Shown: positions 7,693 to 49,053 of the stretch, in pieces
Numbering within the stretch: the first letter of the stretch is position 1
Layout: every line of letters begins with the position of its first letter
Assembly (NCBI RefSeq): GCF_019931215.1
Contig: NZ_JAIOUB010000001.1
Location: forward strand, 1-64,000
DNA from: Alcanivorax limicola
GTDB taxonomy: Bacteria; Pseudomonadota; Gammaproteobacteria; Pseudomonadales; Alcanivoracaceae
Reading direction: 5' to 3'
Length of the DNA: 64,000 nt
Translations under genes and position numbers: made by a program
The notes under the pieces: model-generated
Database searches by the model: none
Told to the model about the DNA's origin: nothing
What the model saw: only the letters and a program-made list of their open reading frames with translations

Positions 7693-7700
7693 TCAAATAC

Positions 7701-8490: not shown

Positions 8491-8734
8491 GGGTGCTACT
8501 CCTGATTGAACATCAGCAGGCACACTATGCCGAGCCTTCGGTGGGGTCAACGGGCGTGTTGTGTCCGGCGAGCACTATTGCCCTGAGTGGGCATTAACAG
8601 AAGTGCTCAATCGCTATGAGCTGTCCTGTCATTGTTTGTATACACGCGGTGGTGCAGTCTAATGGCCCTTCCGGGCGTCATGCCCGGCGACAACAGCCAC
8701 TCACAAGCTGACAGAAGGCGAGAGGACCCTCTCC

Positions 8735-29837: not shown

Positions 29838-31517
29838 ATGCTGGACGCATGGCAGTTGTTGGCGGGTCTTGGCCTGTTCCTGCTTGGCATGGATTACATT
29901 GAACGGGGCCTCAAGGGACTGGGCAATGACGTGCTGGTGCGGGTGTTGCGTGGCAGCACCGGGCGCGCCTGGACCGGCGTCCTGGTGGGCGCAGCGGCCA
30001 CTGCACTGATGCAGAGCAGCTCGCTGGTTGGTCTGCTGGTGCTGGCCTTTGTGGGCGCGGGCATCATGCCCATGAAGAACGCCCTCGGCGTTGTGGTGGG
30101 CACCCATGTCGGCACCACTGTCACAGGCTGGATCGTCGCCACCGTCGGTTTCAAGCTGGATATGGGGGCCTTGTCCCTGCCGCTGCTGGGGCTTGGCGGG
30201 CTGGGTGTTGCCATGCTGGCCGAACACAATCGCCCCGGTGCCGCGGCGCGTCTGTTGCTGGGTTTCGGTCTGTTGTTGTCCGGCCTGGGGTTCATGAAAG
30301 AAGGCGTTGAGACCTTCGCCTCCACGGTGGACATGGTCTGGCTCGCCGATTATCCGGTAGCAATTTTTGCTGTGGTGGGGCTGGTACTGGCGACGCTGCT
30401 GCAATCCAGTTCTGCGACTATGATGATCAGTCTGTCAGCCTTGCACGCTGGCGTGATCACGCTACCCATGGGCGCGGCGATTACCATCGGCGCACACATC
30501 GGTACTACCAGTACCATGGCGCTGGGCGCGTTGCGCGGCGATGCCGCCAGCCGCCGGGTTGCGGTGTTCAATGTCATCTACAGTACGGCCACGGCGGTGT
30601 TTGCCTTGCTGGTGCTGTTGCCCTTCGTTGCACCAATGCAAGCCTGGCTGGGCATCGAAGATCCGCTCTACAGCCTGGTGGCCTTTCATACCCTCTTTAC
30701 GCTGCTCGGTGTGTTGATGTTCTATCCTTTGCTGGGCTACGCCGCGCCGTTGCTGGAAAAGTATGTGGCGGGCCGTCGCAACCAGGTCAGCCAGTTTGTC
30801 AGCAAGGTGCCGCCGTCCATCAGTGAGGCCGCCGTGGCAGGTCTCGAAAAAGAAACGCTGCATGCGCTGGGGCGGGCCATGCAGCTGACGGCCAGCGCAT
30901 TTGGTGGTCGAACAGGGCAGGCGTTGCGCCCCGCCTCGGTGCCGCGCCGGCGTCTGACCGGTGCGCCCGGTTTTCTGGATGAGTACCAGGCGCTGAAAAA
31001 TCTGGAAGGCGAAATCCTGACATTCATTACTGCCATGCAGACCAGCGAGCTGTCGTCTGCACAGGCCGAGCGGGTCAGCGCACTGGCCGCCGCGACGCGC
31101 GACGCCGTGTACGCCTCCAAGGCGGTCAAGGATGTGCGCAGTAACCTGGATGATATGCGTTTGCGCACAGCCACCAGCGCCTGGGTCAGCGACTTGAGTG
31201 CGCATGTGCTGTCGACGCTGAACACGCTGGAGACGTTGCTGATTGGAAAGATGGGTTTGTCGGGGCATGAAGCGCCGCACAGTGGCGTCTCGGCGAACAC
31301 ACTCGCGGCGCTGACAGAGCGCCACAGCGACACGATGCGTCAGTTGCTGATGCAGCTTCAGCAACGTGGGTGGCAGGGCTTGCTGCACTCAACGGCACTC
31401 AACGTGATTCGGGAGCTCGATCAGAACCTGATAGGGCTGATACGCGCCGTGCAGGCCTGTATGAACACCGAAAGCTCCCCGGATGTTGAGCCAGTGGACA
31501 CAGAAATACAGGGCTGA
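29838..31517 (+). CDS. Na/Pi-cotransporter family protein (NptA/YjbB-like)
   Basis: 559 residues. The membrane half (about 1-310) holds the two inverted repeats of the Na/Pi-cotransporter II family, each with a glutamine-serine signature: ALMQSSSLVG and TLLQSSSATMM. The C-terminal half (about 335-545) is helical and PhoU-like. These proteins move phosphate with sodium; the bacterial YjbB type probably exports it. Upstream 76 bp separate it from DUF6482. The 235 bp downstream (31518-31752) hold the control region of the following regulator. Confidence 0.88.
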   Translation: MLDAWQLLAGLGLFLLGMDYIERGLKGLGNDVLVRVLRGSTGRAWTGVLVGAAATALMQSSSLVGLLVLAFVGAGIMPMKNALGVVVGTHVGTTVTGWIVATVGFKLDMGALSLPLLGLGGLGVAMLAEHNRPGAAARLLLGFGLLLSGLGFMKEGVETFASTVDMVWLADYPVAIFAVVGLVLATLLQSSSATMMISLSALHAGVITLPMGAAITIGAHIGTTSTMALGALRGDAASRRVAVFNVIYSTATAVFALLVLLPFVAPMQAWLGIEDPLYSLVAFHTLFTLLGVLMFYPLLGYAAPLLEKYVAGRRNQVSQFVSKVPPSISEAAVAGLEKETLHALGRAMQLTASAFGGRTGQALRPASVPRRRLTGAPGFLDEYQALKNLEGEILTFITAMQTSELSSAQAERVSALAAATRDAVYASKAVKDVRSNLDDMRLRTATSAWVSDLSAHVLSTLNTLETLLIGKMGLSGHEAPHSGVSANTLAALTERHSDTMRQLLMQLQQRGWQGLLHSTALNVIRELDQNLIGLIRAVQACMNTESSPDVEPVDTEIQG

Positions 31518-31620
31518 AGCTGGCGCGAACGTACTGCTTCCGCCCTGGTGAATGTGCGCTGGTTCACGAAACATGTCTTTCTTTCCGCCTTTTTACAAAA
31601 TTAATAATTCGTGCCCGCTT

Positions 31621-31649
31621 TTGACAAGAATCTTGTCGATCAGATCAAT
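31621..31649 (+). promoter_or_regulatory. Candidate promoter of the first AraC gene
   Basis: TTGACA (31621-31626) is followed after 17 bp by ATCAAT (31644-31649). The -35 is consensus and the -10 weak, as expected for an activator-dependent promoter. The same TTGACA-N17-ATCAAT arrangement occurs at 34706-34734 before the Ash-domain protein gene. Confidence 0.5.
31623..31637. promoter_or_regulatory. Perfect palindrome GACAAGA-A-TCTTGTC (candidate operator)
   Basis: A 15-bp perfect inverted repeat overlapping the -35 box and spacer of the candidate promoter. GACAAG half-sites recur upstream of the second AraC gene. A further pair of direct repeats (AATAATAAGA at 31670-31679 and 31689-31698) lies downstream in the AT-rich leader. 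Confidence 0.5.
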
Positions 31650-31752
31650 GAATGCCCGCGCAGGAGAATAATAATAAGACAGGAAGGCAATAATAAGAAA
31701 ATGACGAACTGGGGGGAATAACAACTAACCTGTATCTGGCGCGAGAAAAATA

Positions 31753-32805
31753 ATGTACAGAGCAGACAGCATGGCATTTGAAGTGCCTATTATATCAGTT
31801 CGTTATGTGCGCGCGTTTGTCAGCTTCATGGAAAGTAGAGGCATCAGTCGGCAGATGCTTCTCACTGGTACGGGCGTGCGCGAAACGACACTGGATGACC
31901 CCAATCGATTCTTCTCCATGGTTCAGGTTGTGCGCGTGCTCGGCCGTGCGGAAATGCTGCTGGAGGATGACCAGTCAGGCTTTGCATTTGGTCAACGCCT
32001 TGATCTGCAAGGTCACGGCGTACTCGGGTTCGCGTTGTTGCAGCAACGCGATCATCGCACGTTGATAAGAATGATCGTGGACTACCTTCGTGTCGCCCTG
32101 CCGATTATGGACATGCGTATCAAGTGTTTCGGTGATGAGGTCAGTATTGCTCTCGCCGATACCTGGGAGCTTGGGGCGTTACGCCCCTTTGTGGCCAAAA
32201 TGTACATGGGCAGCATTCATACGCTGGCGTCTCTGGTGTGTCGCGATTTCGTATTCGAGTTCGATTTTCCGGCAGACAAAAGCACATCCTCATGGTTGAC
32301 CCTCACACGCGGTGCCGAAGTGCGTTTCGGCTGTGATAAGAACCGCATTGTAATGCCGCTGTCCGGGTACCGGCCGTGGGGTAACGAAGATGGTCTGGCG
32401 CGTCGCCTGGCGGCAGCGAGGTCGAGAGAAAGCATCGAGGTCGACACACACCGGGATACGGGCACGCTGCAATCAGGAAGTGCGGTGGAAGTCGTTGTGC
32501 GCGTGAAGCAGCACGTCATGAATAACCCGGGCCGCAATGGCTCGCTGGATCGTGTTGCGGATGAGTTGGGCATGAGCCCGAGATCGGTGCGCTATCATCT
32601 GAATCTGGCCGGTTTCGCCTTTCATGATATTCGCAACAGCATCAGGGAGACCTATGCGACCCGCTACCTCAAGGATACGCGTTTGCCGTTGAGTCGCATT
32701 GCCGAGAAGGTGGGCTACAGTGACCAGGCCAGCTTCACGAAGGCCTACCGGGGCTGGACGGGTAAGACACCGGGCGATGTCAGGCGTGCAAGCAGAATGC
32801 TATGA
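31753..32805 (+). CDS. AraC-family regulator with arabinose-binding-like N-domain (OruR type), copy A
   Basis: 350 residues. The N-terminal domain (about 1-215, AFEVPIISVRYVRAF) belongs to the Arabinose_bd group of AraC/OruR-like regulators that sense amino acids, lipids or related metabolites. The C-terminal DNA-binding domain (about 245-345) has two HTH units with SLDRVADELGMSPRSVRYHL and the diagnostic RIAEKVGYSDQASFTKAYRGWTGKTPGDVRR. It overlaps the GspN-like gene by 4 bp. Copy B lies 0.8 kb downstream and is clearly homologous throughout. It is the likely activator of the lipase/FadL cluster. Confidence 0.92.
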   Translation: MYRADSMAFEVPIISVRYVRAFVSFMESRGISRQMLLTGTGVRETTLDDPNRFFSMVQVVRVLGRAEMLLEDDQSGFAFGQRLDLQGHGVLGFALLQQRDHRTLIRMIVDYLRVALPIMDMRIKCFGDEVSIALADTWELGALRPFVAKMYMGSIHTLASLVCRDFVFEFDFPADKSTSSWLTLTRGAEVRFGCDKNRIVMPLSGYRPWGNEDGLARRLAAARSRESIEVDTHRDTGTLQSGSAVEVVVRVKQHVMNNPGRNGSLDRVADELGMSPRSVRYHLNLAGFAFHDIRNSIRETYATRYLKDTRLPLSRIAEKVGYSDQASFTKAYRGWTGKTPGDVRRASRML

Positions 32806-33518
32806 CGGTGAGCGAGCGCGTGCTACTGAGTGCGGTATTTCTTGTCAGTCTCTGCGGCTTTCTGCTTGCCGGTATTCCTGCCGCAACGGTGCTTTCTCCG
32901 CTACTGACAATGGATGCAGAATCAGAACGCCCGATCATTACACGTGTACAGGGCGTCTGGTGGGATGGTGCTGTGCAGGGCAGGTGGCGGGAACACCACT
33001 TCCTGGCACGCTGGAGGCTGGAACGGCGTGGCCTCTCGCCCGGTGTGCGCTTGAGCATTGATGCGGGCGGCTTCGATGCCTCGGGTTGGGCGGGTCGCGG
33101 TTCGCGAGATTGGCGCCTGGAGCAGTGGCTCGTGACGTTGCCCGTCATGCTCGTGGAGGACCTGCTGCCAGATGTGAGTGCCGACGGTATCTTTGAAATT
33201 GATATAGAGGCGTTGGCACTGAGCAACAGCACGCTGAAACACGTCGATGGCAAGCTCCGCTATGGTGGTGGAAAGGTATCCTGGCGGGAACTGGAGAGTG
33301 TCAGTGTGCCAGCCCTGGACGGCGTGCTGGGCATGGTGGAGGGCCGGCCCGAATTTTCCATGGCGGGGCCGGCGGGCGAGACACTGATGCAGGCACGGTT
33401 GGGGCAAGATGAAGTGTCGTTACGTATTTATACGGCGTTGCTACAGTTATTTGGCATGACCGAGGACGGTGACCCGGCGAGTGAAATATTCCATAACACG
33501 TATGCGTTCCCCCATTGA
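32802..33518 (+). CDS. Orphan GspN-like bitopic protein
   Basis: 238 residues: a short cytoplasmic N-terminus, one membrane helix (about 7-30, VLLSAVFLVSLCGFLLAGIPAATV) and a periplasmic domain. The pattern VQGVWWDGAVQGRWREHHFLARWRL and later LGMVEGRPEFSMAGPAG fits the type II secretion GspN family, although no other Gsp genes are present. Its start overlaps the regulator stop (ATGA), so its expression is tied to the AraC protein. A periplasmic accessory role for secretion of the lipase cluster is inferred. Confidence 0.65.
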   Translation: MTVSERVLLSAVFLVSLCGFLLAGIPAATVLSPLLTMDAESERPIITRVQGVWWDGAVQGRWREHHFLARWRLERRGLSPGVRLSIDAGGFDASGWAGRGSRDWRLEQWLVTLPVMLVEDLLPDVSADGIFEIDIEALALSNSTLKHVDGKLRYGGGKVSWRELESVSVPALDGVLGMVEGRPEFSMAGPAGETLMQARLGQDEVSLRIYTALLQLFGMTEDGDPASEIFHNTYAFPH

Positions 33519-33543
33519 CAAGCAAGGCGGCATTCTGGACAAG
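33515..33543 (+). promoter_or_regulatory. GACAAG direct repeats upstream of the second AraC gene
   Basis: GACAAG occurs at 33517-33522 and 33538-33543, exactly 21 bp apart (two helical turns), a geometry AraC-family proteins favour. The first copy lies within TTGACA (33515-33520) at the GspN stop codon. No convincing -10 follows. Confidence 0.35.
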
Positions 33544-33627
33544 ACGCGCCGGCGTCGGGGACACGATAATCTGCAATATGTATAGATTTTCAGGTGTTCC
33601 GGCACATCGAGGTGGGCGACATCCGTC

Positions 33628-34656
33628 ATGTTGCATAAGAAGAACAGCACGGCCTACGAAGTACCTTTGATTCCCGTGCGCTATGCACGCCAGTTTCTGG
33701 ATTTTGTTGGCGCACAGGGTATCGCGAGAGATGCCGTGCTGTATGGCGCTGAGTTGGATATTCGGGAACTGGATAACCCGGATATGATGCTGAACATGCG
33801 ACAAACCATCCAGATCCTTGATCAGGCGCGTCGATTGCTCGACGATGAGCGTGCCGGTTTCCGCTTTGGTCAGAAGCTGGATCTGCTCGGGCATGGGCTG
33901 CTGGGTTTCTCCTTGCTCTGGCAGCAGGATCAACGTGATCTGATCAGAATGCATGTGCAGTACATTCGTGTCGCGCTGCCCATTATGGATATGGATATCC
34001 AGTGTGTCGGTGGAGAGATTCGCGTCCGGCTGCATGATGTGTGGGATCTTGGTGGTTTGCGACCCTTCATTGTGGCCGTTTACATGGGCAGCGTTCATTC
34101 ACTGGCCTCTCTGGTATGCCGGCATCTGCGTTTCGAGTTCGATTTTCATGCACAGCGCCCCGCGAACGAGTGGGAAAGCATGGTTGAAGGCTCGAGTATG
34201 GTGTTCGGTGCACCTGTCAGCCAGGTATTGATGCCGCTTTCAGGGCGGCCGCCCTGGAGCAATGATGCGTCGCTCTCCTACTATCTGGCCGGTGCGCGCT
34301 CGCGCGAATCCTTGCAGGCCAATGGCGATATGGAGGTGGTCGCACTGGTTCGCCAGAAGTTGCTGGATAACCCGGGGCGCGACAGCACCCTGGAGCGGGT
34401 GGCGGAGCGTCTGGAGATGAGCCCCCGCTCTGTGCGCCATCACCTGCGCCGGGCCGGGGCGTCCTTCCATGGTATGCGCAATGAGATACGCGAGGCCTTT
34501 GCGACACGCTACCTGACGGAAACTTATCTTTCCTTGCAACGTATTGCCGAGGTGCTCGGGTATAGCGATCAGGCCAGTTTTACCAAAGCCTATCGGGTCT
34601 GGACGGGCACGACGCCCGGTGAGGTTCGTCGTCGCAAAAAGAAAAACGATGCATGA
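33628..34656 (+). CDS. AraC-family regulator (OruR type), copy B
   Basis: 342 residues, aligned end to end with copy A at 31753: AYEVPLIPVRYARQF at the start, the LGHGLLGFSLLWQQDQRDLIRMHVQYIRVALPIMDM block, and the HTH region TLERVAERLEMSPRSVRHHLRRAG with RIAEVLGYSDQASFTKAYRVWTGTTPGEVRRR. A lineage duplication with GspN left between the copies is the simplest explanation. It may divide effector recognition with copy A. The 200 bp after it hold a candidate promoter for the secreted-protein genes. Confidence 0.92.
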   Translation: MLHKKNSTAYEVPLIPVRYARQFLDFVGAQGIARDAVLYGAELDIRELDNPDMMLNMRQTIQILDQARRLLDDERAGFRFGQKLDLLGHGLLGFSLLWQQDQRDLIRMHVQYIRVALPIMDMDIQCVGGEIRVRLHDVWDLGGLRPFIVAVYMGSVHSLASLVCRHLRFEFDFHAQRPANEWESMVEGSSMVFGAPVSQVLMPLSGRPPWSNDASLSYYLAGARSRESLQANGDMEVVALVRQKLLDNPGRDSTLERVAERLEMSPRSVRHHLRRAGASFHGMRNEIREAFATRYLTETYLSLQRIAEVLGYSDQASFTKAYRVWTGTTPGEVRRRKKKNDA

Positions 34657-34705
34657 TGTAGCACCGGTCATGACGTGTTTCACAGGTTTTTCCATCATTC
34701 CCGAT

Positions 34706-34734
34706 TTGACAACATCATTGCCGTTTACATCAAT
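34706..34734 (+). promoter_or_regulatory. Candidate promoter of the Ash-domain secreted protein gene
   Basis: TTGACA (34706-34711), 17 bp, ATCAAT (34729-34734), the last followed by GA as in the regulator promoter at 31621. The match in -35, spacing and non-consensus -10 suggests a shared regulon. The gene starts 122 bp downstream, leaving a long leader. Confidence 0.5.
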
Positions 34735-34856
34735 GACCCCCTCCGTCTCCCCGAACAGATAATGATCGCGCTGATTATGCTTCGTTGTTTTGAGCATTCC
34801 CTATCGGAGCATTCTGCATCAAGAACGCCAATAACAGGGATACGGAGGAAAGTATC

Positions 34857-36749
34857 ATGGAGTCCACAAGTAACAGACGCCCGCCATGCGGGATAAGAAA
34901 GAAACTGGCCACAGCTGTTTTGATAGCGGCTGCCGGCGGTATGGGCAGCAGCGTCGCCATCGCTAATTCGGTCGATGTTGATCTGCAGCTGATGTACAGC
35001 TGTGAATATCCTTTGATCGGTGTGCAACCACTGAGTGCGGACATCAGTTCGCATATGCCGCTCACCATACCCGTCAACGAGCCCACCGGGGCGTTTGATC
35101 TGAATATCGTTGCCACGGCGATGGGCAATACCTGGACCGGGCTGAATATCGTCAGCGCCACGACGATTGAAGGCATGGCCTACGCCGATTCGAATCTGTC
35201 CGGCAATAACCTCAATCTTGATCTGACCGTGCCGATGATCATTGATCAGCAGCCGGTGCCTCCGTCCGCCGGGGATTTCGACTTGATCGCCTATGGCGAA
35301 ACGCCATCACTGACCTTCATGGAGAATAATGAAGGGGAGGTGATCATTGCGGTCGAAGACAATTTGCGTATGGCCATGATCGCGCGCCGTGCCGATGGCA
35401 GCTACGTTGATTTCGGCGGCAGCTGGCACTCGGACCCGGATAACCCGGAAGCCTTTATCGTGTCCTGCGCAGTAGATGCCGGACAGGATCAGGAGCTGCA
35501 TCGCTTTACGGTGGGTGGCGATACGCCGACAGAACCGCGTATCAGCGTGACGCCGGACGAGCTCGATTTCGGCAATGTTCAGGGTGGTCTGACCGTCACG
35601 GAATCTGTCACCGTCTCCAATACGGGCGGCGCAGAGCTGGGTATCAACAATATTACCCTGGCAGGTCCTGATGCCGGTGCGTTCTCTGAAAGCAACGATT
35701 GCACCACCGTTGCGGCCGGCGACAGCTGCACGATTGATGTGACCTTCTATCCTGTCAATGAGGACAGCTTCAGCGCGGAACTGGTGATCGAGTCCAACGA
35801 CGCCGAAGAGCCGAGCGTCTCTGTGGCGCTGATGGGTTCCAGTGTCATGACACCGACCCCGGAGATCACCGTGAACCCGGAGTCTGTCAGCTTCGGCATG
35901 GTGCAGGTCGGCGACGCCGCGACGCAGACGGTGACGATAGGCAACACGGGCCTGGAATCCTTGTTTGTCGACAGCATCAGCATTACCGGTTCTGAAGCCA
36001 GCGAGTTTATTGAAAACAATGACTGCACGACGGTCGCGCCGGATGCAACCTGCGCCATCACCATCTCTTTCTCGCCCACGGCCACCGGCAATCGCGCGGC
36101 CACGCTTGAAATCGAATCCAACGCGGCGGACACCGCCACGCTGGTGCCGCTGAGCGGTCAGGGTTCCACCGGGGGCGGGAATACCGTCGATTTCCCGATG
36201 AGCCTGACAGGTGAGTCTTTCATCAAGAAACCTCACGGCACGGTACCGCTGACGGGTGGCATTCAAGCCGTGCTGGATCTGGCAACGGGTGACTTCGTCG
36301 CTGATCTCACGCTTGATCCGTCCCACGGCGAATTCGAGATTCTCTATCCGCTTTACAATATTCCGTTCCTCGGTCCGATCATGGGCTGGATTACATCGGA
36401 CGCGGATGTGGAGTTCGAGATGGTCGGGCAAACCACCGGCACCCTGGTGGATGGCGTGCTCACCGCTCACGCGACCATGTATATCAAACTGCCGCGCGTG
36501 CGAGTGATCGGCCTGGGTATCCCGCTGCCGATTGGCGGGGGTGATGAGTGCCGGACCAGCGAAGCGATCGAGATTGAGCTGAAGACGCCTGAAGGCGAGC
36601 AGTTTGATCCCTTCCTGGGCGGTAACCTCGAGGCGACCTACACCCTGCCTCCGGTTGAAAACTGTGGTGGCTGGTTCGACGGCTTTATCAACATGTTCAT
36701 GGCCGGTCCGGATAACACCATTCATGTCTCACTTGAGGCTGACCTCTGA
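34857..36749 (+). CDS. Secreted DUF6801-like protein with two inserted Ash-type Ig domains
   Basis: 630 residues. A long leader (about 1-36, ending VAIA) precedes a beta-rich domain (38-218: LMYSCEYPLIGVQPLSADIS). Two choice-of-anchor D/Ash domains follow (about 228-330 and 335-435), each with PxELDFGNVQ or PESVSFGMVQ, a VSNTG/IGNTG turn and CTTVA..SC. The C-terminal domain (440-630) has GGGDECRTSEAIEIEL and PVENCGGWFDGFINMF. N- and C-terminal parts match the next protein, so the Ash pair looks inserted. I link the ends to DUF6801 from memory. Function is unknown; a surface ester- or lipid-binding role is inferred from the lipase and FadL neighbours. Confidence 0.8.
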   Translation: MESTSNRRPPCGIRKKLATAVLIAAAGGMGSSVAIANSVDVDLQLMYSCEYPLIGVQPLSADISSHMPLTIPVNEPTGAFDLNIVATAMGNTWTGLNIVSATTIEGMAYADSNLSGNNLNLDLTVPMIIDQQPVPPSAGDFDLIAYGETPSLTFMENNEGEVIIAVEDNLRMAMIARRADGSYVDFGGSWHSDPDNPEAFIVSCAVDAGQDQELHRFTVGGDTPTEPRISVTPDELDFGNVQGGLTVTESVTVSNTGGAELGINNITLAGPDAGAFSESNDCTTVAAGDSCTIDVTFYPVNEDSFSAELVIESNDAEEPSVSVALMGSSVMTPTPEITVNPESVSFGMVQVGDAATQTVTIGNTGLESLFVDSISITGSEASEFIENNDCTTVAPDATCAITISFSPTATGNRAATLEIESNAADTATLVPLSGQGSTGGGNTVDFPMSLTGESFIKKPHGTVPLTGGIQAVLDLATGDFVADLTLDPSHGEFEILYPLYNIPFLGPIMGWITSDADVEFEMVGQTTGTLVDGVLTAHATMYIKLPRVRVIGLGIPLPIGGGDECRTSEAIEIELKTPEGEQFDPFLGGNLEATYTLPPVENCGGWFDGFINMFMAGPDNTIHVSLEADL

Positions 36750-36759
36750 AGTCAGTCCC

Positions 36760-36799
36760 CCGGATTGCCTGGCCTGCCTGGGCAATCCGGCTTTTTTTT
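36760..36799 (+). terminator. Rho-independent terminator between the two paralogues
   Basis: CCGGATTGCC (36760-36769) pairs perfectly with GGCAATCCGG (36781-36790), followed by C and eight T. It lies 11 bp after the Ash-protein stop and 13 bp before the ATG of the next gene in the same direction. It may set the expression ratio between the first secreted protein and the lipase genes. Confidence 0.93.
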
Positions 36800-36811
36800 C
36801 GGGATACCTGC

Positions 36812-38017
36812 ATGAAATCAGTGATACGGCCGGGCCGACTGATCAGCACCTGTGTGCTGTCTGCGGCGTTCTGGGGCGGCATCGCCACCCTGGCACCGGC
36901 TCATGCCGAAGACGATACCCCCTCATTGATGCTGGAGTACACCTGTGTATTCCCGCTGCTGGAAGAACAGCCCCTCACGGTGGCGATCACCGCCGAGATA
37001 CCGGATACGGTGCCGGTGGGTGAGTTGACGGAGGCGTTCCGGATAAACGCCGAGGCGTTGGTCAGCGGGCAAGCTGGCAATGCGCTGGATTTTCTCGGTT
37101 CGCGCACGCTTTCGGGCACGGTTCAGGCTCAGGCCCGGATCGACGGCCCCGCGTTGACGCTGGACCTCTCGGTGCCCATGACGGTGCCCGAGCAAGCCAT
37201 GCCGGGAGCGCCCGGCGATTTTCAGATTGACGCGCAGGGCGAGACGCCGCCGTTGATATTTGAACAACAGAATGCGGGCGAGGTGGCGATCAGGGTTGAG
37301 CATCTGGTCATGACACTGCGACCGCTGGACGCGCAGGGCGCGCTGACCGGTATCGGCGAATTCGAAGCCGAGTGTCTGCTTGAACCGGATCAGGATAACG
37401 TCCTGCATACCCTGATCGTGGGTGAAGGCAGCGCAGGCGGAGAATTTGCCTTGCCGATAAGCGGGCAGACGCTGATTCGTGCCGCAGACGGCACGGCGGC
37501 GTTACAGGGCCAGATCAGCGGCGTGCTGGAAGACGACGGCGCGCTGGCCGCCGACATGCATTTCGCGCCTGCCCACACCCGGCTGCACATGCGCTGGTTG
37601 TTGCGTTTGCTGACGGCCGACGCCGAGTTGCTGTTCGAGCCGGTGGCACAGACCCAGGGCCACCTCGACGGCGAAACCCTGACAACGGAAACGCTCATGC
37701 ACGTGCGGGTGCCCGCCATCAGCGTGCGCATGCTGGGTCTGCCGTTGCTGTCGGGTGGCGGCGAAACCTGTCGAACCGCCACACCGATAACGCTGCATCT
37801 GGCAACCCCCTCCGGTGGTGCGTTTGACGTGGAAGCGGGAGGCGTTCTGGAGGGCGTCTATCTGGAGGGGACCTACGATATGCCGACGTTCGAGAATTGT
37901 GGCGGCCTGGAAAGCTTTATCAATCTGTTCATGACCGGCACGGGCAATCGTATGGCGCTGGCAATGGGCCTGGCACCGAGTCTGGCACCGGGCGCAACAG
38001 AGAGGACGCAACCATGA
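36812..38017 (+). CDS. Secreted DUF6801-like protein without Ash domains
   Basis: 401 residues with a signal peptide (about 1-32, ending APAHA). It is homologous to both ends of the previous protein: YTCVFPLLEEQPLTVAITAEI at the N-terminus and GGGETCRTATPITLHL with ENCGGLESFINLFMTG at the C-terminus, with conserved cysteines that could form disulfides. Function is unknown. Its last codons overlap the lipase start by 4 bp (ATGA), so it is translationally coupled to the lipase and could be its partner or chaperone (inference). It starts only 13 bp after a strong terminator, so it needs read-through or a hidden promoter. Confidence 0.82.
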   Translation: MKSVIRPGRLISTCVLSAAFWGGIATLAPAHAEDDTPSLMLEYTCVFPLLEEQPLTVAITAEIPDTVPVGELTEAFRINAEALVSGQAGNALDFLGSRTLSGTVQAQARIDGPALTLDLSVPMTVPEQAMPGAPGDFQIDAQGETPPLIFEQQNAGEVAIRVEHLVMTLRPLDAQGALTGIGEFEAECLLEPDQDNVLHTLIVGEGSAGGEFALPISGQTLIRAADGTAALQGQISGVLEDDGALAADMHFAPAHTRLHMRWLLRLLTADAELLFEPVAQTQGHLDGETLTTETLMHVRVPAISVRMLGLPLLSGGGETCRTATPITLHLATPSGGAFDVEAGGVLEGVYLEGTYDMPTFENCGGLESFINLFMTGTGNRMALAMGLAPSLAPGATERTQP

Positions 38018-39249
38018 TCGACGCAACCAGGATTGACACAAGACGCACCAGAGGACGTCTCACGGTGTTGCTGACCGCGCTGCTGACGGCGCTGTTGACG
38101 ATAGTGATCAGCGGCCCGCTGATCGCCGTCGCCGATGACTGGTATCAGCCCCCGGTCCCGCTGCCTGCCGGTGAGCCGGGCGACATCATCAAAACGCGTG
38201 AGGTCAACGCGGGGCCGCCGTCCGCGCGCGCCATGGCACGTGCCTGGCAGGTCATGTACCGCTCCACGGATGCCCTCGGTGAAGCGAATGCGGTGACGGG
38301 CACGTTGGTGGTACCGCGCGCGGGCGATCCGGGCAGCATGCCGCTGATCGGCATGGGCCCGGGGACGCATGGGCCGGCGGCGCGCTGCGCACCTTCGCGC
38401 ATGATCGACAAGGGTGCTTTTTATGAACAGGCCACCCTCAACGACATGCTGCAGCGTGGCTATGCCGTGCTGGTGACCGACTATGAGGGCTATCACCCGG
38501 ACCCGGCCACCACCTACATGGTCGGCCGATCCATGGGCGCCGCCCTGATCAACGGCGTGCGTGCGGCGCAGCGCTTTCCCGAGGCCGGCCTTTCCGATCT
38601 GGCGCCCGTGCTGTTTCGTGGCTATTCCCAGGGCGGCGGTGCGGCGATGTGGGCCGGGCAGATGCAACCGGATTACGCGCCGACCCTGAATCTGGTGGGT
38701 GTGGCCGGGGGCGGTGTGCCCGCCAATCTGGCGGCGGTGGCGCTGCCGCTCAACGGGGAGCCCGGTTTTGGCGTCATGTTTTATGCCTTGCTGGGGCAGG
38801 ACCATGCGTACCCCGAGCTGTCGTTGGCGCCCTTTGTGAATCAGGCGGGCATGGCGGCGTTGCAGGCAATGCAGGAGGACATGTGCGTGCTGGAGCTGCT
38901 GCAGGGGTTTGCGGGTATCACGCTGGATGATCTCACCGACATCAATCCCCTCAATGCCGAGCGTTTCAATCGCATTGCCGAGAACCAGCTTGGTGATCAA
39001 CCCATTCCGGTGCCGGTGTATCTGTACCACGAGCAGCAGGACAGTCTGGTGGCCTATGGGCAGGCGCAAACCCTGCGCGATGACTACTGCGCCCTCGGCG
39101 TGGACGTGACCTGGCAAAGCCATGACACCGGCGGCGACACCGGCGTGATCCGTCATCTGAATCTGGTCTATCACGGCAATGAGGGCGTCAACGCCTTTAT
39201 CGAACAGCGGCTGGCCGGGCAGCTGCCGGCATCCCATTGTTTTCCCTGA
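38014..39249 (+). CDS. Secretory lipase (LIP family, alpha/beta hydrolase)
   Basis: 411 residues with an N-terminal signal/anchor (about 14-40, repeated LLTALLTALLT, ending IAVADD). The nucleophile elbow is GYSQG with Ser205; Asp343 (EQQDSLV) and His381 (VIRHLN) are placed to complete the triad. The family includes Candida secretory lipases and actinobacterial homologues that hydrolyse triacylglycerols or other esters. Supporting segments are TGTLVVPRA and YAVLVTDYEGYH. The start is fixed by the ATGA overlap with the preceding gene; the frame is open to 37897 inside that gene. The FadL-like porin gene follows after 22 bp, fitting hydrolysis outside and uptake of the products. Confidence 0.9.
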   Translation: MIDATRIDTRRTRGRLTVLLTALLTALLTIVISGPLIAVADDWYQPPVPLPAGEPGDIIKTREVNAGPPSARAMARAWQVMYRSTDALGEANAVTGTLVVPRAGDPGSMPLIGMGPGTHGPAARCAPSRMIDKGAFYEQATLNDMLQRGYAVLVTDYEGYHPDPATTYMVGRSMGAALINGVRAAQRFPEAGLSDLAPVLFRGYSQGGGAAMWAGQMQPDYAPTLNLVGVAGGGVPANLAAVALPLNGEPGFGVMFYALLGQDHAYPELSLAPFVNQAGMAALQAMQEDMCVLELLQGFAGITLDDLTDINPLNAERFNRIAENQLGDQPIPVPVYLYHEQQDSLVAYGQAQTLRDDYCALGVDVTWQSHDTGGDTGVIRHLNLVYHGNEGVNAFIEQRLAGQLPASHCFP

Positions 39250-39271
39250 GCGGTATCGCGGAGGCAACCTT

Positions 39272-40609
39272 ATGAAAATAACAACGATTGCGGGTACGTT
39301 TTTCGGTGCAGCGCTGAGCCTGGCGGCGACACCGACGCTGGCCGCCATGGGCAACGCGCCGTCCACCTACGGTGTGTTGCCTCATGATGTGGCCACGGCG
39401 CAAGCACTGTCCCTGTTCAGCACACAGGTCTCGTCGGTCTACTACAATCCCGCCGCCCTGGCGCGGGACGGCCGAGGTGAACTCACGGGCGGTCTGTTCC
39501 ATGCGGACCATACCTTGCGTGCGGAAAGCCTCGGCGGCGCGGCGCCCGCGCAACGCAGTGGCAGTGTGCTGGACGACACCCCGTCGCAGCAGTTGTTGCT
39601 GGGTCTGAAAACCGATCTGAGCAACCTGACAACGTTCCGGCATCCCCTGTACCTCGGTTTCATGTTGGGATCAGAGCGGTATGCGCAGGAGATGCTGGCG
39701 TTCAATGCCGAGACATCCGAGTTCGGCCAGTTCCTGCACTACGGTCGGCAACCGTTGTTCCTGTCGATCGGCGTCGGCACCCAATTGTGGCGAGGCATTA
39801 ATTTCGGCGCAGCGCTCCGGTTGACGCTGCACAGTGACGCCAAGCTGTATACCGAGACGAATCTCCAGGGAGATACCCGCCGCGAACGACTGGATGTCAC
39901 CGCCGAGCCGGTGCTGCGGCCGATCCTCGGGTTCCACGTCAACATGGGCGAGACGTTCTGCAGCGTGCAAGACTGCTGGATGGATCATCTGGATATTGCA
40001 CTGGGCTATCGCGGCTATTCCAACACCCGTGTGCGTGTGGATGCCGAGGCAGAAATTCCCGGCACCGTGACCGGGCCGGGACTTGAGCTGGCCATCAGAG
40101 CCATCGATTCATTTCAGCCGGAGATTACCACCCTGGGCATACAGTACGCGTTTGCTGGCCGCACCCGTGTGGGGCTGACCGGGGAATACCAGACATGGCA
40201 ACGGCTGAGCCGCGAATTCGAAGGGGACACCGTGCGCGATCAGGCCGAAGCACGTTTTCGCGATATCGTGATTCCACGCCTCGGCCTTGAACACGACGTC
40301 AGTGAGCATTTTACCGTCAAGACTGGCGCCGCCTGGGAGCGTTCGGCGTTGCGCAGCACGCGCACCCCGGACGTCAATTATCTGGATAACGACAAGCTGG
40401 TGCTGGGTCTGGGTTTGAGCGTGGTGGCCCACCGCCTGCCGTTCATGGCGCATCCGGTACAGATTGATGTCGGCTACCAGTTCCATCATCTCAAACATCG
40501 CGAGTTTGATCTGGTGACGTCGGACCCGTCAGATCCCGACCCACTGGAAACCGTGCGCGCCAAGGGCGAGGTGCATGTTTTTGCGGGCAGCGTGACGCTG
40601 CGATTCTGA
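39272..40609 (+). CDS. FadL/TodX-family outer-membrane hydrophobic substrate porin
   Basis: 445 residues with a signal peptide (about 1-25) and a barrel beginning with the FadL-like segment FSTQVSSVYYNPAALARDG, in which Asn-Pro-Ala-Ala is diagnostic. Alternating strands run to a terminal Phe (SVTLRF). The family moves fatty acids or hydrocarbons across the outer membrane by lateral diffusion. ATG 39272 has GGAGG upstream; an open frame from 39179 overlaps the lipase gene. Lipase upstream and lipoprotein downstream suggest uptake of released acyl chains. Confidence 0.88.
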   Translation: MKITTIAGTFFGAALSLAATPTLAAMGNAPSTYGVLPHDVATAQALSLFSTQVSSVYYNPAALARDGRGELTGGLFHADHTLRAESLGGAAPAQRSGSVLDDTPSQQLLLGLKTDLSNLTTFRHPLYLGFMLGSERYAQEMLAFNAETSEFGQFLHYGRQPLFLSIGVGTQLWRGINFGAALRLTLHSDAKLYTETNLQGDTRRERLDVTAEPVLRPILGFHVNMGETFCSVQDCWMDHLDIALGYRGYSNTRVRVDAEAEIPGTVTGPGLELAIRAIDSFQPEITTLGIQYAFAGRTRVGLTGEYQTWQRLSREFEGDTVRDQAEARFRDIVIPRLGLEHDVSEHFTVKTGAAWERSALRSTRTPDVNYLDNDKLVLGLGLSVVAHRLPFMAHPVQIDVGYQFHHLKHREFDLVTSDPSDPDPLETVRAKGEVHVFAGSVTLRF

Positions 40610-40632
40610 CCGGGCGTAGTAAGGAGCACATC

Positions 40633-43600
40633 ATGACAGGCATCAGGTTACCTGCATTCAATGCGCCGCTGATCGGGGCGCTGCTGATGAGCGCGCTGCT
40701 GCTGGCCGGTTGCGGGGATGACAAGGCGGACATCCGGCAAGGGCCGGATCGCTACGCCGGCCAGCAAGGGTTGGTATACAGCTATCCGGCGCCGCAACAG
40801 ATTGAAGTGCCCGCGTCGGCACCGCTGGTGCTGCGCTTCAGCAGCGAGATCACCGCGTCGCACCCGGAGAGTCGTCTGACGTTACTGGATGGCGAGGGGG
40901 AGACGGTGGCGTTCAGCCATCGCGAGGTGGGCGAGGGGCGCGGCCTGGTGCTTGTGCCCGAGGCACGCCTGGCGCCCTTGAGTGAATACACCTTGCAGAT
41001 CGAGGCACTGAGTCTGGCTGCCGGAGAGATGGCACCGACCAGCTTCTCGTTCACCACGGGCGCGGCCGCAGAAGGCCCGCGTGAACAGATGGCCAGCAGC
41101 ACGGGTTTTACTGTGCAGCGTCAGATTCCGGATGGCGAGGCGTTGCCCATTCTGGCGTTCTCCAACTTCCGGTTGCTGTTTACGCAACCGCTGGCGCGGG
41201 ACACGGTGCGCTATGGCGATACCCTGAGCCTGACCGACAGCGAGGGTGCGCTGGTGCCAGCGCAGGTGCTGGTGCGCGGGCGTCACCTGACGCTTGATCC
41301 CCTGACCGAGTTGCTGCCGGGTGAGGACTACACCCTGCAACTGCTCGGCGGCATCCGAAGTGCCTATGGTGATGCGCTGGACGCGTACAGCCTGACGTTC
41401 TCGCCGCAGGACACGGGGAATCGCTCCACCATGGTGCAGGAAGTGCCGGACGCGCAGGGCGGGGCAGTTGTGTCGCCGCTGACCGGCGAGCCGGTCAATA
41501 TGGTGCCCATGGCCTCGGTATTGCTGGGCGAGGACAACAGCACCCAGCAGAGCGGCGACATACGGGCCGAGCTGGCCCATATCCCCACGTTTCCGGATAC
41601 CTCGCCGTTGCGTATTGCGCGCGGCTCGCGCCTGAGCGGTACGTCTCTCGAGGTGCTGATTGGCGGCGCCGTGCCGGCCGGTTTCGACTCGGGCGCGGTG
41701 GAGATCCAGTTTGTATCGGACGCCATGGGTTACATGCTGGAGAATCCCTACAGCAGCCTGCCCGGTGCGCCGCGCTGGCTGAAACTGTACATGGACGTGG
41801 CCATTACCACGGAAGATCCCCGGGCCAATGCGGCCGTCACGCAGAACCTGATGCATCTTGAGCTGGTGGGCACCGTGTTTGTCGAGGAGGGCAGGCTGGT
41901 CGTCGATGCGGTGGGCGTGGCGGAGCCTCGTATCCTGGGCGACGAATCTGCGCGCAGTGTGCTGAGTTTTTCCATGCGCTCCTATCTGGATCAAAACCAC
42001 CCGCCGCCCCCGTTGGACGACACGACGCCGCCCGAGCTGCAGAGCGGGCTGCCCGGCACCCACCCTGAGCTGATCCGTCCCGGCGATCCGCTGGTCCTGA
42101 ATTTCACCAAGGTTCTCGACCCCACCACACTGGTCGGGCGTGTGCACCTGTATGAGAACGGTCTGCTGGCGGAGACGCCCCGTGTTCACACCGACGGTGC
42201 CGCCCTGGTCATTCGACCGGTGGAACCGTTGATCTACAGCCCTGATGCCACGCCGCGCGAATACAGCCTGGTGCTGGAGGACGGCATTACCGACCTGGCG
42301 GGCAATGCCCTGGCGGTGCAGGAAGATACGTTTGCCTTGCCGACCTTTGTCACGGAGCAGCCGCGTGCCCCGGTGGTGCTGAGTGCCTATCCGGGCTTCC
42401 CCTGCGTTACCGAACAAGCCGACCTGGCGAACCATGATGCCGGCCGTTGCCTGGGTGGGAAGCCGGACGACGATCACCTGCCGTTGGCGCGCCTGCCCGC
42501 GGATCGTTCCTTGAGGGTTACCTTCTCCCAGGACATGGATCCGGATTCGGTGACCGCAGACACCCTTGTGGTGGAGGAGATTGACGCCGCAGGCGATCCG
42601 GTGGGTGATCCGGTTGACGGCCAGGTGACGGTCGGGATGCGCACGCTGACGTTTACCCCGACCGCGCCCTGGACGGTCGGCAGTCTGTATCGCTATACCC
42701 TGCGTTCGTCCGAGCTGGATCCGGTCTGCGGCAGCGACGCCATCTGTGACCGGCGCGGCTTGCCGCTGCAAACCCGGTTACTGGCGCAAACCCCCGACGA
42801 GGCCGTGCCGGCGACGGCAGGCGGGCCGGATATGGCCATTCATTTTCTGGGCGCGCCGCCCTCACATGCCGTGATGCAAGCCTTGCGCAATCTGCCCGGG
42901 GCGGACGTGAATGCCAATTTCGTATTAGACGCCGGTGAGACGCTGCCCTCCGTGGACCCGATGGCGCTGGCAAACAGCACGCGGCTGTCACGCAATCCGG
43001 ATGCCAACCCTGATGCTGATGGCACAGCGGCCTCGGGCAATGCCCTGCGCGATGCCAATGTGGGGTGTGGTTTTGATGCCGACGATGCGCCGCTGGATTG
43101 CCCTGACGAGACCTACCTGTTTCTGAACGGCAATCTGGATGTGGAGGTGTACGGCTATGTACCGCCGGAAGACATCGACGCGGCCGATCCGGGCATTCCC
43201 GACCAGGTCAAGGATCAGGGGGGTGTGCTGGCCTATATCCATCCCACCCAGGTGCTGCTGTCCGGCACTGTGGTGCACGTCGAGTTGTCAGATATCGCTG
43301 CATCGCTGAACTTTGAGGCGCTCCCCGCGCAGACAGGGCCGCAGGTCATGCGCATGCGTTATACCTGTAACGCGGCCTCTGGAGAGTGTGAAGCGCCGGA
43401 TTACGGCCGCATCAAGGGGTGGATCGTTGAGGAGGCCGGCGAGGCGCGTTTCATGGCGCAACTGTCACTGTACCTGGACGCGCCGGAACTGGACCCCGAG
43501 GTCGTGAACCATAACCTGGGCGGTGAACTGTTGCCGGTGGCGCACAACCTGCGCAGCTATCCGCTGACGCTGGAGCTGAGCGGGGCGCTGACGTTTCTTG

Positions 43601-43776
43601 ATGATGGCCGCCTGCAGATTCGACAGCAGAACCTGTCACCGATCGCGCTGACCATTGAGCTGGAAATCGGCCAGCCGGTGCTGCTGACCGGCGCGCTCTA
43701 CCTCGGCATCGAGACCGGCGACGCGCAACTGGAGTATGTGTCTGAACCGATCATTTCAGCACCGGCAGAACCTTGA
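40633..43776 (+). CDS. Large Ig-like (Big_5-type) surface lipoprotein
   Basis: 1047 residues. The leader ends in the lipobox LLAGC with Cys27. Several Big_5/SbsA Ig-like modules follow, recognised by LVLRFSSEI, FRLLFTQPL, LVLNFTKVLDPTTL and LRVTFSQDMDPDSV, each leading to a Y(T/S)LxL strand (about 45-145, 150-265, 475-585, 615-710). The last ~300 residues are a different beta-rich domain with few landmarks. No catalytic motif is seen. It lies 23 bp after the FadL-like gene and is probably co-transcribed. A surface scaffold or substrate-binding role in the lipase module is inferred. Confidence 0.85.
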   Translation: MTGIRLPAFNAPLIGALLMSALLLAGCGDDKADIRQGPDRYAGQQGLVYSYPAPQQIEVPASAPLVLRFSSEITASHPESRLTLLDGEGETVAFSHREVGEGRGLVLVPEARLAPLSEYTLQIEALSLAAGEMAPTSFSFTTGAAAEGPREQMASSTGFTVQRQIPDGEALPILAFSNFRLLFTQPLARDTVRYGDTLSLTDSEGALVPAQVLVRGRHLTLDPLTELLPGEDYTLQLLGGIRSAYGDALDAYSLTFSPQDTGNRSTMVQEVPDAQGGAVVSPLTGEPVNMVPMASVLLGEDNSTQQSGDIRAELAHIPTFPDTSPLRIARGSRLSGTSLEVLIGGAVPAGFDSGAVEIQFVSDAMGYMLENPYSSLPGAPRWLKLYMDVAITTEDPRANAAVTQNLMHLELVGTVFVEEGRLVVDAVGVAEPRILGDESARSVLSFSMRSYLDQNHPPPPLDDTTPPELQSGLPGTHPELIRPGDPLVLNFTKVLDPTTLVGRVHLYENGLLAETPRVHTDGAALVIRPVEPLIYSPDATPREYSLVLEDGITDLAGNALAVQEDTFALPTFVTEQPRAPVVLSAYPGFPCVTEQADLANHDAGRCLGGKPDDDHLPLARLPADRSLRVTFSQDMDPDSVTADTLVVEEIDAAGDPVGDPVDGQVTVGMRTLTFTPTAPWTVGSLYRYTLRSSELDPVCGSDAICDRRGLPLQTRLLAQTPDEAVPATAGGPDMAIHFLGAPPSHAVMQALRNLPGADVNANFVLDAGETLPSVDPMALANSTRLSRNPDANPDADGTAASGNALRDANVGCGFDADDAPLDCPDETYLFLNGNLDVEVYGYVPPEDIDAADPGIPDQVKDQGGVLAYIHPTQVLLSGTVVHVELSDIAASLNFEALPAQTGPQVMRMRYTCNAASGECEAPDYGRIKGWIVEEAGEARFMAQLSLYLDAPELDPEVVNHNLGGELLPVAHNLRSYPLTLELSGALTFLDDGRLQIRQQNLSPIALTIELEIGQPVLLTGALYLGIETGDAQLEYVSEPIISAPAEP

Positions 43777-43783
43777 ACCCGGG

Positions 43784-43816
43784 CACGCCCCGGTGCGCGA
43801 GGCAGACCGGGGTGTG
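43784..43816 (+). terminator. Hairpin after the Ig-like lipoprotein gene
   Basis: CACGCCCCGGT (43784-43794) pairs with ACCGGGGTGTG (43806-43816) with one G-U pair. There is no U-run. It may end the lipase operon before the small barrel gene, whose own control region would be 43817-43918. Confidence 0.45.
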
Positions 43817-43918: not shown

Positions 43919-44560
43919 ATGAATAAAATCAATGGACTGGCTGCGGCCATCGCGTTGGCCGCCGTGCCTTTCGCGGCTTCAGCCCAAAGCCTGATTAGTT
44001 ACGACTATTTGCAGCTGGACATTATCGTCGACGGCGAGCTCTCGGAGAGCGGATTCTCTGAGGATGTGGATGGCTTTGCGCTTGAGGGATCTGCTCTGCT
44101 GCACCCGAACGTATTCATTGCTGGTCAGAGTACACAGGGTTATTTCGATGACAGTGGTGATGATGCCGCATTTGATCAGTTCTCCTTCGGCGTGGGCGGG
44201 CGTTTTGGCCTGATGGAGAGCGCAAGCAGTGCCCTGGACGTTTATGGTGTCTTGAACTACGAGAACATATCTTTCTTGGGCGCCTCTTTCTCGGGTTTTG
44301 GCATTGGTGCAGGTCTGCGCTGGGCGCCGGCGGATCAGTTTGAAATCAATGCGTCTGTCAGCCATGTCGATTATGGCAAGAACGTGGGCGCTGAGATTGA
44401 GGCCCTGCGCTATCAGTTACGTGGCCTTTTCCACGCTACTGAAAATCTGTCTTTTGCTCTGGACTTCCGCTTTGAAGAGCTCGATATCGATTTCGGTGGC
44501 GGGGCTGGTGGTGATCTTGATTACGATCAGATTCGCCTGGGTGCCCGCTGGAATTTCTGA
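43919..44560 (+). CDS. Small outer-membrane beta-barrel protein
   Basis: 213 residues: a signal peptide (about 1-22, ending ASA) and eight or so amphipathic strands ending in the outer-membrane Phe signature (LGARWNF). The pattern FGVGGRFGLMES, YGVLNYENISF and GIGAGLRWAPADQFEINASVS resembles OmpW/OmpX-sized barrels of the outer-membrane beta-barrel group. Function is unknown. ATG 43919 has GAGGG 7 bases upstream; the frame is open to 43736. Base composition is visibly more AT-rich than in its neighbours. Confidence 0.82.
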   Translation: MNKINGLAAAIALAAVPFAASAQSLISYDYLQLDIIVDGELSESGFSEDVDGFALEGSALLHPNVFIAGQSTQGYFDDSGDDAAFDQFSFGVGGRFGLMESASSALDVYGVLNYENISFLGASFSGFGIGAGLRWAPADQFEINASVSHVDYGKNVGAEIEALRYQLRGLFHATENLSFALDFRFEELDIDFGGGAGGDLDYDQIRLGARWNF

Positions 44561-48033: not shown

Positions 48034-49053
48034 ATGTTTAGACGCAACACCATCGCAATCAGTCACGTGATCCGTGTGCTTCAGGGGGCTGCGCGCTCCG
48101 GCGCCTCGATTCCGGCGCTGCTTGAAGCCGCCAGTATTCCCCGGGCGCTGCTGGACGACCCCGATGCCCGCATCGGGCGGGATGCCTTCATCCGTCTGAT
48201 GCTGGAAGTGATGCAGCAGACTCAGGATGAGTTTCTGGGCTTCGGCCAGGGGCGCAAGTCGAAGCCCGGGACCTTCAGCATGATGGCCCATGCCGTCATC
48301 AATTGTTCCAATCTGGAGAAGGCCATACGCCGGGGCATCCAGTTCTACGACCTGTTTGACCTGCATGTGCACACTGAGCTGCATCGGGAGGGTGAGCGCG
48401 CCTGGCTGGTGGTCAAGGCTGATCCGCGTCTGGATTTCCGTGAGGTCATCATTGAATCAACGCTGATGTTGTCGCTGCGCTTCATGAGCTGGCTGGTGGG
48501 CAAGGCCATTGAAGGTCAGCGGGTGGAGTTCGATTTTGCCAAGAGCGGCCCGGTAGATGAAGATTACAAATCCGTGTTTGTCTGTCCGGTGGTCTTCGAA
48601 TCCGAAACCAATGTGGTGATCTTCAACAGCGATTATCTGGATTTGCCACTGGTGCAGAACCAGTTGTCGCTGTCACGTTTTCTGAGGGACTCCCTGGCGC
48701 AGCTGATCGACGGCAATATCCACAACGTGGGGCTGCCGGCACAGATTCGTGCCATCATCTCCAAGGAATACGGCAATAATTTCCCGGATTTCTCGGAGAT
48801 CTGCGAAAAGCTGAACATGACGCCGCAGACGTTGCGCCGGCGCCTGAAAGAGGGCAACACCAGTTATCAGGAGATCAAGGACACGATCCGTAAAGACGCC
48901 TCGATCTACTATCTGTCGAAACCGGACCTTTCCATTGATGAAATTGCGTTGTTGATGGGCTTCAGCGAAGCCAGCTCGTTCCATCGCGCCTTCAAGAAAT
49001 GGACCGGCAAGACCCCGTCGGCGTACCGGAGAGAATATTTTGGCGAGCATTGA
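48034..49053 (+). CDS. AraC-family regulator (OruR type), copy C
   Basis: 339 residues with an Arabinose_bd-type N-terminal domain (about 8-200) and a C-terminal AraC HTH domain (about 235-335: EICEKLNMTPQTLRRRLKEGNTSYQEIKD and EIALLMGFSEASSFHRAFKKWTGKTPSAYRRE). It is more distant from copies A and B than they are from each other. It is divergent from the SDR gene and is its likely regulator. The 3' end overlaps the purU start. Confidence 0.92.
   Translation: MFRRNTIAISHVIRVLQGAARSGASIPALLEAASIPRALLDDPDARIGRDAFIRLMLEVMQQTQDEFLGFGQGRKSKPGTFSMMAHAVINCSNLEKAIRRGIQFYDLFDLHVHTELHREGERAWLVVKADPRLDFREVIIESTLMLSLRFMSWLVGKAIEGQRVEFDFAKSGPVDEDYKSVFVCPVVFESETNVVIFNSDYLDLPLVQNQLSLSRFLRDSLAQLIDGNIHNVGLPAQIRAIISKEYGNNFPDFSEICEKLNMTPQTLRRRLKEGNTSYQEIKDTIRKDASIYYLSKPDLSIDEIALLMGFSEASSFHRAFKKWTGKTPSAYRREYFGEH

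Follow-up and report, generated by a model that had tools for sequence, protein, structure and literature searches.

The locus considered here raises the question of what two predicted secreted DUF6801 proteins are doing beside a lipase gene. It lies in a 64,000-nucleotide stretch of the 3.55 Mb genome of Alcanivorax limicola (contig NZ_JAIOUB010000001.1, positions 1 to 64,000; hereafter the window) and comprises eight genes. These encode two AraC-type regulators (AraC-A and AraC-B), a GspN-like protein, the two DUF6801 proteins (D68L and D68S), a CALA-type secretory lipase (LIP) and an AupA-like outer-membrane protein with an AupB-like lipoprotein. Little is understood of how oil-degrading bacteria bring hydrophobic substrates to their envelope and through it, and the locus supplies candidate secreted partners for one lipase subclade. 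Our best explanation is that D68L-D68S-LIP form a conserved, horizontally shared cassette in which an extracellular CALA-type lipase would be made together with dedicated partners; taken with the full mechanism set out below, including uptake by AupAB, this was judged reasonably probable. That LIP and D68C, the C-terminal domain common to D68L and D68S, stand in a partner relation appears very likely from the comparisons that follow.

Linkage of the DUF6801 proteins with the lipase

DUF6801 (PF20611) was present in both D68 proteins (64.4 and 81.3 bits, gathering score 26), which share an architecture of N-terminal DUF6801 and C-terminal D68C. Across 143 genomes, DUF6801 occurred in 13 including that of the window (12 above the family cut-off), and 11 of the 13 belonged to the host family, the marine, oil-degrading Alcanivoracaceae. 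D68L, a D68S-type protein and LIP were neighbours in 10 of these 11 genomes. The association extended to another phylum, with LIP present in the fetched stretch of 31 of 43 actinobacterial DUF6801 loci (8 on the same strand, 23 on the opposite one); 21 of the 31 were from Amycolatopsis and hence not independent. The gene order in Actinomadura hibisca was D68L-D68S-LIP. The original prediction had made its reading depend on the secreted pair and the lipase being conserved as neighbours, and such conservation was what the comparison returned.

The most window-like LIP was located less than 5 kb from a DUF6801 gene in 12 of 14 actinobacterial genomes, compared with 1 of 61 other LIP matches. The figure of 12 is inflated, since 10 of the 14 genomes had been picked from loci already seen with LIP, and the informative part is the contrast with the other LIPs of the same genomes. 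Four of the 14 had been picked for a LIP-less locus; in two of these, the best LIP nevertheless adjoined another DUF6801 gene. A DUF6801-LIP cluster (L087) came from a metagenome-assembled genome titled Bifidobacterium breve, a name that looks wrong for this assembly, which is of 5 Mb and gave 11 LIP matches.

D68C was also found joined to the lipase itself. Eight proteins of 605−663 residues (stop to stop), each encoded in one frame, had LIP first and D68C last, as confirmed with the D68C profile (genomes G007, G008, G009, G013, G014, G023, G024 and G031). A search of 389 genomes with this profile gave a match in 29, L204 alone being examined among the matches of G357, and seven further fusions were identified in two more families (L209-L215). 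In total, LIP-D68C fusions were present in 15 genomes of three gammaproteobacterial families sampled, and four of the 15 (G007, G014, G023 and G031) also carried the cassette. In profile-profile comparison, the fused C-terminal domain matched D68C at 98.5% (E 3.7e-15, 152 columns, with both cysteines in register); the control comparison with the DUF6801 half gave 2.4%. The eight fusion lipases were the nearest group to the cassette lipases in the LIP tree (97/93). When a domain occurs both fused to an enzyme and encoded beside it, this classically points to a functional partner, which D68C would be for LIP. As judged from these sequences, comparison shows that D68C accompanies this group of lipases, being joined to the LIP C-terminus or supplied separately, as D68S and D68L, from adjoining genes. 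Neighbourhood in two phyla and the fusions thus support the earlier proposals that the DUF6801-like proteins are lipase partners and that the locus is a module for extracellular lipids or esters.

The adjoining position of the D68 and LIP genes, the 4-bp overlap of D68S and LIP in the window and a GspN-like gene near all 11 Alcanivoracaceae cassette loci outside genome G011 could also suggest that D68S and D68L assist LIP in export or folding, similar to foldases, and are not interfacial partners. This was considered improbable. Foldases are separate, membrane-bound proteins, whereas related lipases carry D68C as a C-terminal fusion; D68 proteins also occur in actinobacteria, which are without an outer membrane of the type used by type II secretion systems (T2SS); and the immunoglobulin-like (Ig) or fn3 spacers of D68L would be odd for a chaperone.

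LIP matched PF03583 with 150.3 bits (gathering score 23) and was the only LIP match of the genome at E≤0.001. Its matches among PDB sequences were 9jcb, 3guu, 2veo and 3zpx, of which 3guu and 2veo are Candida antarctica lipase A (CALA). The catalytic residues Ser205, Asp343 and His381, predicted earlier from the window, were conserved across the cassette-type alignment. Ser205 was present in all 43 rows (the window's LIP being counted twice), and Asp343 and His381 in 42, with a gap in the remaining row; the latter two were also present in 18 of 18 other LIPs. As far as the available text of the two accounts goes, LIP resembles the CALA or 'Fungal-Bact_LIP' lipases LipR of Rhodococcus and LipSm of Stenotrophomonas in PF03583, in the order of the triad and in an N-terminal signal-like segment, and its elbow GYSQG is close to the GHSQG and GYSGG reported for that group (PMC5806266, PMC6622161). 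Unlike LipSm and LipR, LIP belongs to a subclade of its own, is coupled to DUF6801/D68C partner genes and has sister lipases with a fused D68C; the same portions of the LipSm and LipR accounts mention no partner of this type (PMC5806266, PMC6622161). Polyester degradation was considered and set aside, as two Alcanivoracaceae polyesterase papers, in the text available, show other enzymes and do not contain 'secretory (lipase)' (PMC12886402, PMC7187450). A marine lipase screen, in the part accessible, mentions neither Alcanivorax nor Marinobacter (PMC13304423).

For D68C, 102 matches were obtained in open frames of the fetched DUF6801 loci, and its two cysteines were invariant in 54 aligned sequences. 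No Pfam family matched D68C above cut-off, and none at all matched over D68C in the stand-alone proteins scanned. In the fused lipases, the Pfam matches to PATR (L141, E 0.0013) and Read-through (L144, E 0.037) were below cut-off and were not taken up. The D68C model, made for the domain of D68L, was of high predicted quality (predicted local distance difference test, pLDDT, 93.5; predicted template modelling score, pTM, 0.86), and that of full-length D68S reached pLDDT 86.0 and pTM 0.53. Foldseek returned nothing at E≤0.001 for either model; the lowest E-values were 0.027 for D68C (the HtaA haem-binding domain) and 0.02 for D68S (OmpU), and the weaker NPC2, OmpW and HtaA matches are leads only. 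Against PDB sequences, the D68S profile matched nothing up to E 1 and the D68C profile only Sarol-1, which was not significant (E 0.037−0.041). An internal duplication, with DUF6801 homologous to D68C, was unsupported (hhalign 0.4%). The PHROGs matches, one each for D68L (in the Ig region) and LIP, were uninformative.

Neither the term DUF6801 nor a D68C-type partner of CALA-type lipases was found in the literature searched, outside which most subscription papers lie. The known parts of the locus are ordinary; what appears new is that CALA-type lipases in two phyla have a partner domain, which may be fused or separate. Extended further, D68C could be an undescribed lipase-cofactor domain common to Actinomycetota and Alcanivoracaceae, acting in cis and in trans and in some of these organisms wired to AupAB as an ester-to-import pathway, a view that we advance only tentatively. 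Either way, a first function hypothesis is provided for DUF6801 and for D68C, and the natural fusions, together with species with and without the island described below, make it easily testable. CALA-type lipases are in industrial use, and a cofactor domain for them, if true, would be of practical interest too.

Inheritance of the cassette

The cassette LIPs of Alcanivoracaceae formed one clade (12 rows, the window's twice; 100/100). This clade fell within a set that includes the actinobacterial D68-linked LIPs (43 rows, 99/99) and lay apart from the other LIPs of its own family, in a tree that was midpoint-rooted, had long branches among the outside rows and left out the seven fusions L209-L215.

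Third-position identities between the window and a sister species (G005) differed sharply along the locus. The values were 91% for D68L, 98% for D68S, 99% for LIP, 99% for AupA and 97% for AupB, compared with 57% for the upstream flanking gene NaPi, 63% for AraC-A, 50% for GspN and 65.5% for AraC-B. Because the first range (91−99%) is so far above the second (50−66%), D68L-D68S-LIP-AupA-AupB were evidently exchanged recently as a block between the two species. AraC-A and the GspN-like gene are outside the exchanged stretch and AraC-B is at its edge. At the DNA level, identity of window positions 35300−46100 to the G005 locus (L031) rose from about 80% to 97−100% over most of D68L-AupB, and it was high again in part of the photolyase-like gene, which was read as a recent recombination tract.

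The island was absent from two sister species, in which the NaPi and photolyase-like flank genes had matches that ended 195 bp (G001) and 865 bp (G004) apart. These are the two of five same-genus genomes without DUF6801 in which the empty site could be examined; in G003 the flank genes were on different contigs, and G002 and G006 each yielded at most one of the two. A small OmpO/Ax21-like porin gene downstream (43919-44560 in the window; loci L185 and L184) was inside the G004 gap, was represented in G001 by its 3' end only and was missing in G005. Since it is present in the G004 gap and as a remnant in G001, it was counted as part of the old flank, outside the module. No plasmid carrier was found in the plasmid collection, where the block had no match at the DNA level and D68S a single weak one, to a Streptomyces protein.

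The AupAB pair and the proposed mechanism

The last two genes of the locus had been described as a FadL-type porin and an Ig-like lipoprotein; both exist, and they are better named AupA-like and AupB-like. The AupA-like protein matched NF041571 over nearly its full length with 506.8 bits, below the equivalog cut-off of 840, and is therefore regarded as a homologue and not filed as an equivalog. The AupB-like gene follows after 23 bp on the same strand, the gaps between LIP, AupA and AupB being 22−23 bp. For reference, AupA proteins passing the NF041571 cut-off were taken from two genomes (G136 and G104). The window protein was 45−46% identical to these, and the gene next to AupA in each encodes a protein of 1061 or 1107 residues with a lipobox-like start (by eye), to which the window's Big_5 protein was 33.8 and 35.3% identical over nearly the whole length. 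The window pair and the AupAB group share the near full-length NF041571 match and an AupA gene directly followed by a Big_5 lipoprotein gene.

By these likenesses, the FadL/lipoprotein half of the module belongs to the described AupAB group, and the original prediction's statement that no system of this composition had been described did not hold for that half. The available text on aupAB describes an alkane-uptake operon of Marinobacter hydrocarbonoclasticus SP17, with up to six nonidentical copies in Alcanivorax, and points to an unidentified type-II-secreted protein required for alkane assimilation (PMC5989066). The window pair differs from the published one in lying behind a lipase cassette, 'lipase' appearing nowhere in the main text of that paper (PMC5989066), and its AupA copy belongs to a different clade from published AupA. 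Elsewhere (L174, positions 1775-9478, G000:C1), a protein of about 300 residues followed each of two AupB-like lipoproteins, which shared about 25% identity with that of the window and had no adjoining AupA match.

We infer the secretion of the proteins, the biochemical role of the partners, the substrate, regulation by AraC, the coupling to AupAB and the import of lipase products as follows. Export of LIP, D68S and D68L would proceed by Sec and after that probably by a type II system, for which gspN-C-D genes are present in the host genome. D68S may dock on LIP via D68C and act in a colipase-like manner or as a substrate-binding subunit, keeping the enzyme at the oil-water interface. D68L, with its Ig spacers and the terminator behind it, could be an extended form, serving to tether or spread the complex on droplets or within the matrix of the biofilm. 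The best guess for the substrate is long-chain esters in oil (acylglycerols, wax or steryl esters), and the hydrophobic products may be taken up by an AupAB copy of one clade, located downstream in this genus and one sister genus. The AraC protein encoded directly upstream of D68L is the likely activator. D68C would thereby work like colipase with pancreatic lipase, or like the substrate-binding domain of a lipase; in each case a lipase is accompanied, in cis or in trans, by a beta domain without catalytic function. Searches with D68S and D68C gave no significant sequence or structural match.

Several observations weigh against this reading. The secretion, binding and activity of LIP and the D68 proteins are predictions from sequence, and the Foldseek results did not support a lipid-binding fold for D68S or D68C. 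In G011, the gene after LIP encodes a shortened DUF6801 protein, so that the D68S copy of this genome is without D68C, and D68L is on another contig. No LIP was in reach at 12 of the 43 actinobacterial DUF6801 loci, and D68L occurred without LIP in the fetched stretch at all nine Marinobacteraceae loci and at L056 and L062; because of these loci, the D68 proteins must also have another role. AupAB adjoined the cassette in 4 of the 11 Alcanivoracaceae genomes and was absent beside it in six, which are of genus g8, G011 being not judgeable. Finally, in the accessible part of the Marinobacter study, biofilms of aup mutants were normal on wax ester, triglyceride (tripalmitin), fatty alcohol and fatty acid (PMC5989066), which weakens the case for AupAB as a simple importer of lipase products.

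Some of the same evidence would fit a rather unlikely alternative, in which D68L and D68S serve as adhesins or matrix proteins on hydrophobic surfaces and are connected with LIP only ecologically, through a shared niche or gene block. D68L has Ig repeats, no anchor was seen in the window's copies, relatives have extended forms with hydrophobic tails and, in two scanned, 7 and 11 Ig repeats, and the Marinobacteraceae have D68L without LIP. The covalent fusion of D68C to LIP and the linkage of D68 to the LIP subclade nearest the window's argue instead for the partner relation. The longer relatives are third, very long DUF6801 proteins encoded behind LIP in L032 (13542-17987), L034 (13207-16461) and L040 (2500-5604); the two scanned were recorded as L058 (11 repeats) and L048 (7 repeats), and the hydrophobic tail is presumably GlyGly-CTERM-like. 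In Marinobacteraceae (L041, L050-L055, L060 and L105), a three-gene unit was found that consists of AraC, D68L and a further small protein, without LIP. The small protein had DUF6160 in the one scanned and homologues in the other eight, and the unit represents a different use of D68L.

The coupling of AupAB to the lipase is the weakest part of the mechanism as we infer it. It is quite possible, if not the reading we favour, that the cassette of lipase and partners is real and the adjoining AupAB is just one of several alkane-uptake copies, untied to the lipase. The host genome has one weak partial AupA match and four strong copies, behind each of which lies an AupB-like gene; the six g8 genomes have the cassette without AupAB; and the aup mutants of Marinobacter, in the text available, were defective on alkanes and on none of the other substrates tested (PMC5989066). 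In favour of a coupling, the four cassette-linked AupA proteins, from two genera, formed one clade (Shimodaira-Hasegawa-like approximate likelihood-ratio test, SH-aLRT, 99) in a quick tree of 43 rows of a longer list, with paralogues incompletely sampled. The short gaps from LIP to AupB point the same way, as does the exchange of AupAB between species together with LIP, although neighbouring genes can be co-exchanged by chance.

Locus layout and control region

All eight genes were confirmed as open frames on the + strand, each with family support from Pfam and NCBIfam, in agreement with the inventory first drawn up from the window. The two 4-bp couplings listed there were verified as ATGA overlaps, at 32802-32805 (AraC-A/GspN-like) and 38014-38017 (D68S/LIP); the start of the locus, given as 31621, was corrected to the coding start of AraC-A. 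The eight genes are not one simple operon, because a terminator-like hairpin separates D68L from D68S and a gap of 200 bp precedes D68L.

Table 1. Positions of genes, domains and other features in the window.
Feature	Positions	Strand	Description	Basis
AraC-A	31753..32805	+	AraC-type regulator, Arabinose_bd + HTH_18, 350 aa	
GspN-like	32802..33518	+	PF01203, second copy in genome, 238 aa	
AraC-B	33628..34656	+	AraC-type regulator, 342 aa, nearest gene upstream of D68L	
D68L	34857..36749	+	DUF6801, two HYDIN/choice-of-anchor-D Ig repeats and D68C, 630 aa, predicted secreted	signal peptide by eye
D68C of D68L	36180..36746	+	domain, 189 residues, conserved Cys pair	
Hairpin	36760..36790	+	terminator-like, 13 pairs then T-run, between D68L and D68S	
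D68S	36812..38017	+	DUF6801 (1.1e-22) and D68C, 401 aa, predicted secreted	signal peptide by eye
D68C of D68S	37439..37969	+	domain	
LIP	38014..39249	+	CALA-type secretory lipase, 411 aa, Ser205 (GYSQG)/Asp343/His381, start ATG 38014	
AupA-like	39272..40609	+	FadL-family outer-membrane protein, 445 aa	
AupB-like	40633..43776	+	Big_5 Ig lipoprotein, 1047 aa	lipobox LLLAGC by eye
Island	31517..43797	.	approximate extent, missing between same flanks in G001 and G004	

AraC-A and AraC-B were identical at 182 of 353 alignment columns. Neither was given a specific NCBIfam name (best match QhpR, 123 and 117 bits, cut-off 250), and the NCBIfam scan neither supported nor refuted the label 'OruR-type' applied to them earlier. 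The twin AraC regulators of the original prediction are both present here, and the pairing was seen only in the window and G005; a single close AraC was found at nine other Alcanivoracaceae and nine Marinobacteraceae loci. A close AraC homologue was directly upstream of D68L at 9 of the 11 Alcanivoracaceae cassette loci outside G011 (the window and L031-L040) and at 9 of 9 Marinobacteraceae loci. At L032 and L033 (genus g2), AraC and D68L are separated by a GspN-like gene of the opposite strand.

The GspN-like protein of the window matched PF01203 with 37.3 bits (cut-off 29.6) and was 29−30% identical to the genome's other GspN. Its gene is not beside other T2SS genes; the gspN-gspC-gspD genes of this genome are on contig C6.

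In the terminator scan, the hairpin between D68L and D68S was detected in the window alone, and L031 carries the identical sequence. Strong hairpins were also seen in the folded D68L-D68S intergenic stretches of nine other loci, without a shuffle control. The folding covered 10 Alcanivoracaceae and three actinobacterial stretches, of which two extend into coding sequence, and T-runs other than that of the window were judged by eye. Based on the hairpin with its T-run behind D68L and the hairpins at the nine other loci, D68L may be produced in excess of the genes behind it. The D68L-D68S gaps of five Alcanivorax loci (L034-L037 and L039) contained a near-identical hairpin motif, GCTGTGCCC...GGGCACAGC. 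About 4 kb past the module, a further AraC regulator with Arabinose_bd and HTH_18 was found at 48034-49053, adjoining a gene that by eye looks like a short-chain dehydrogenase.

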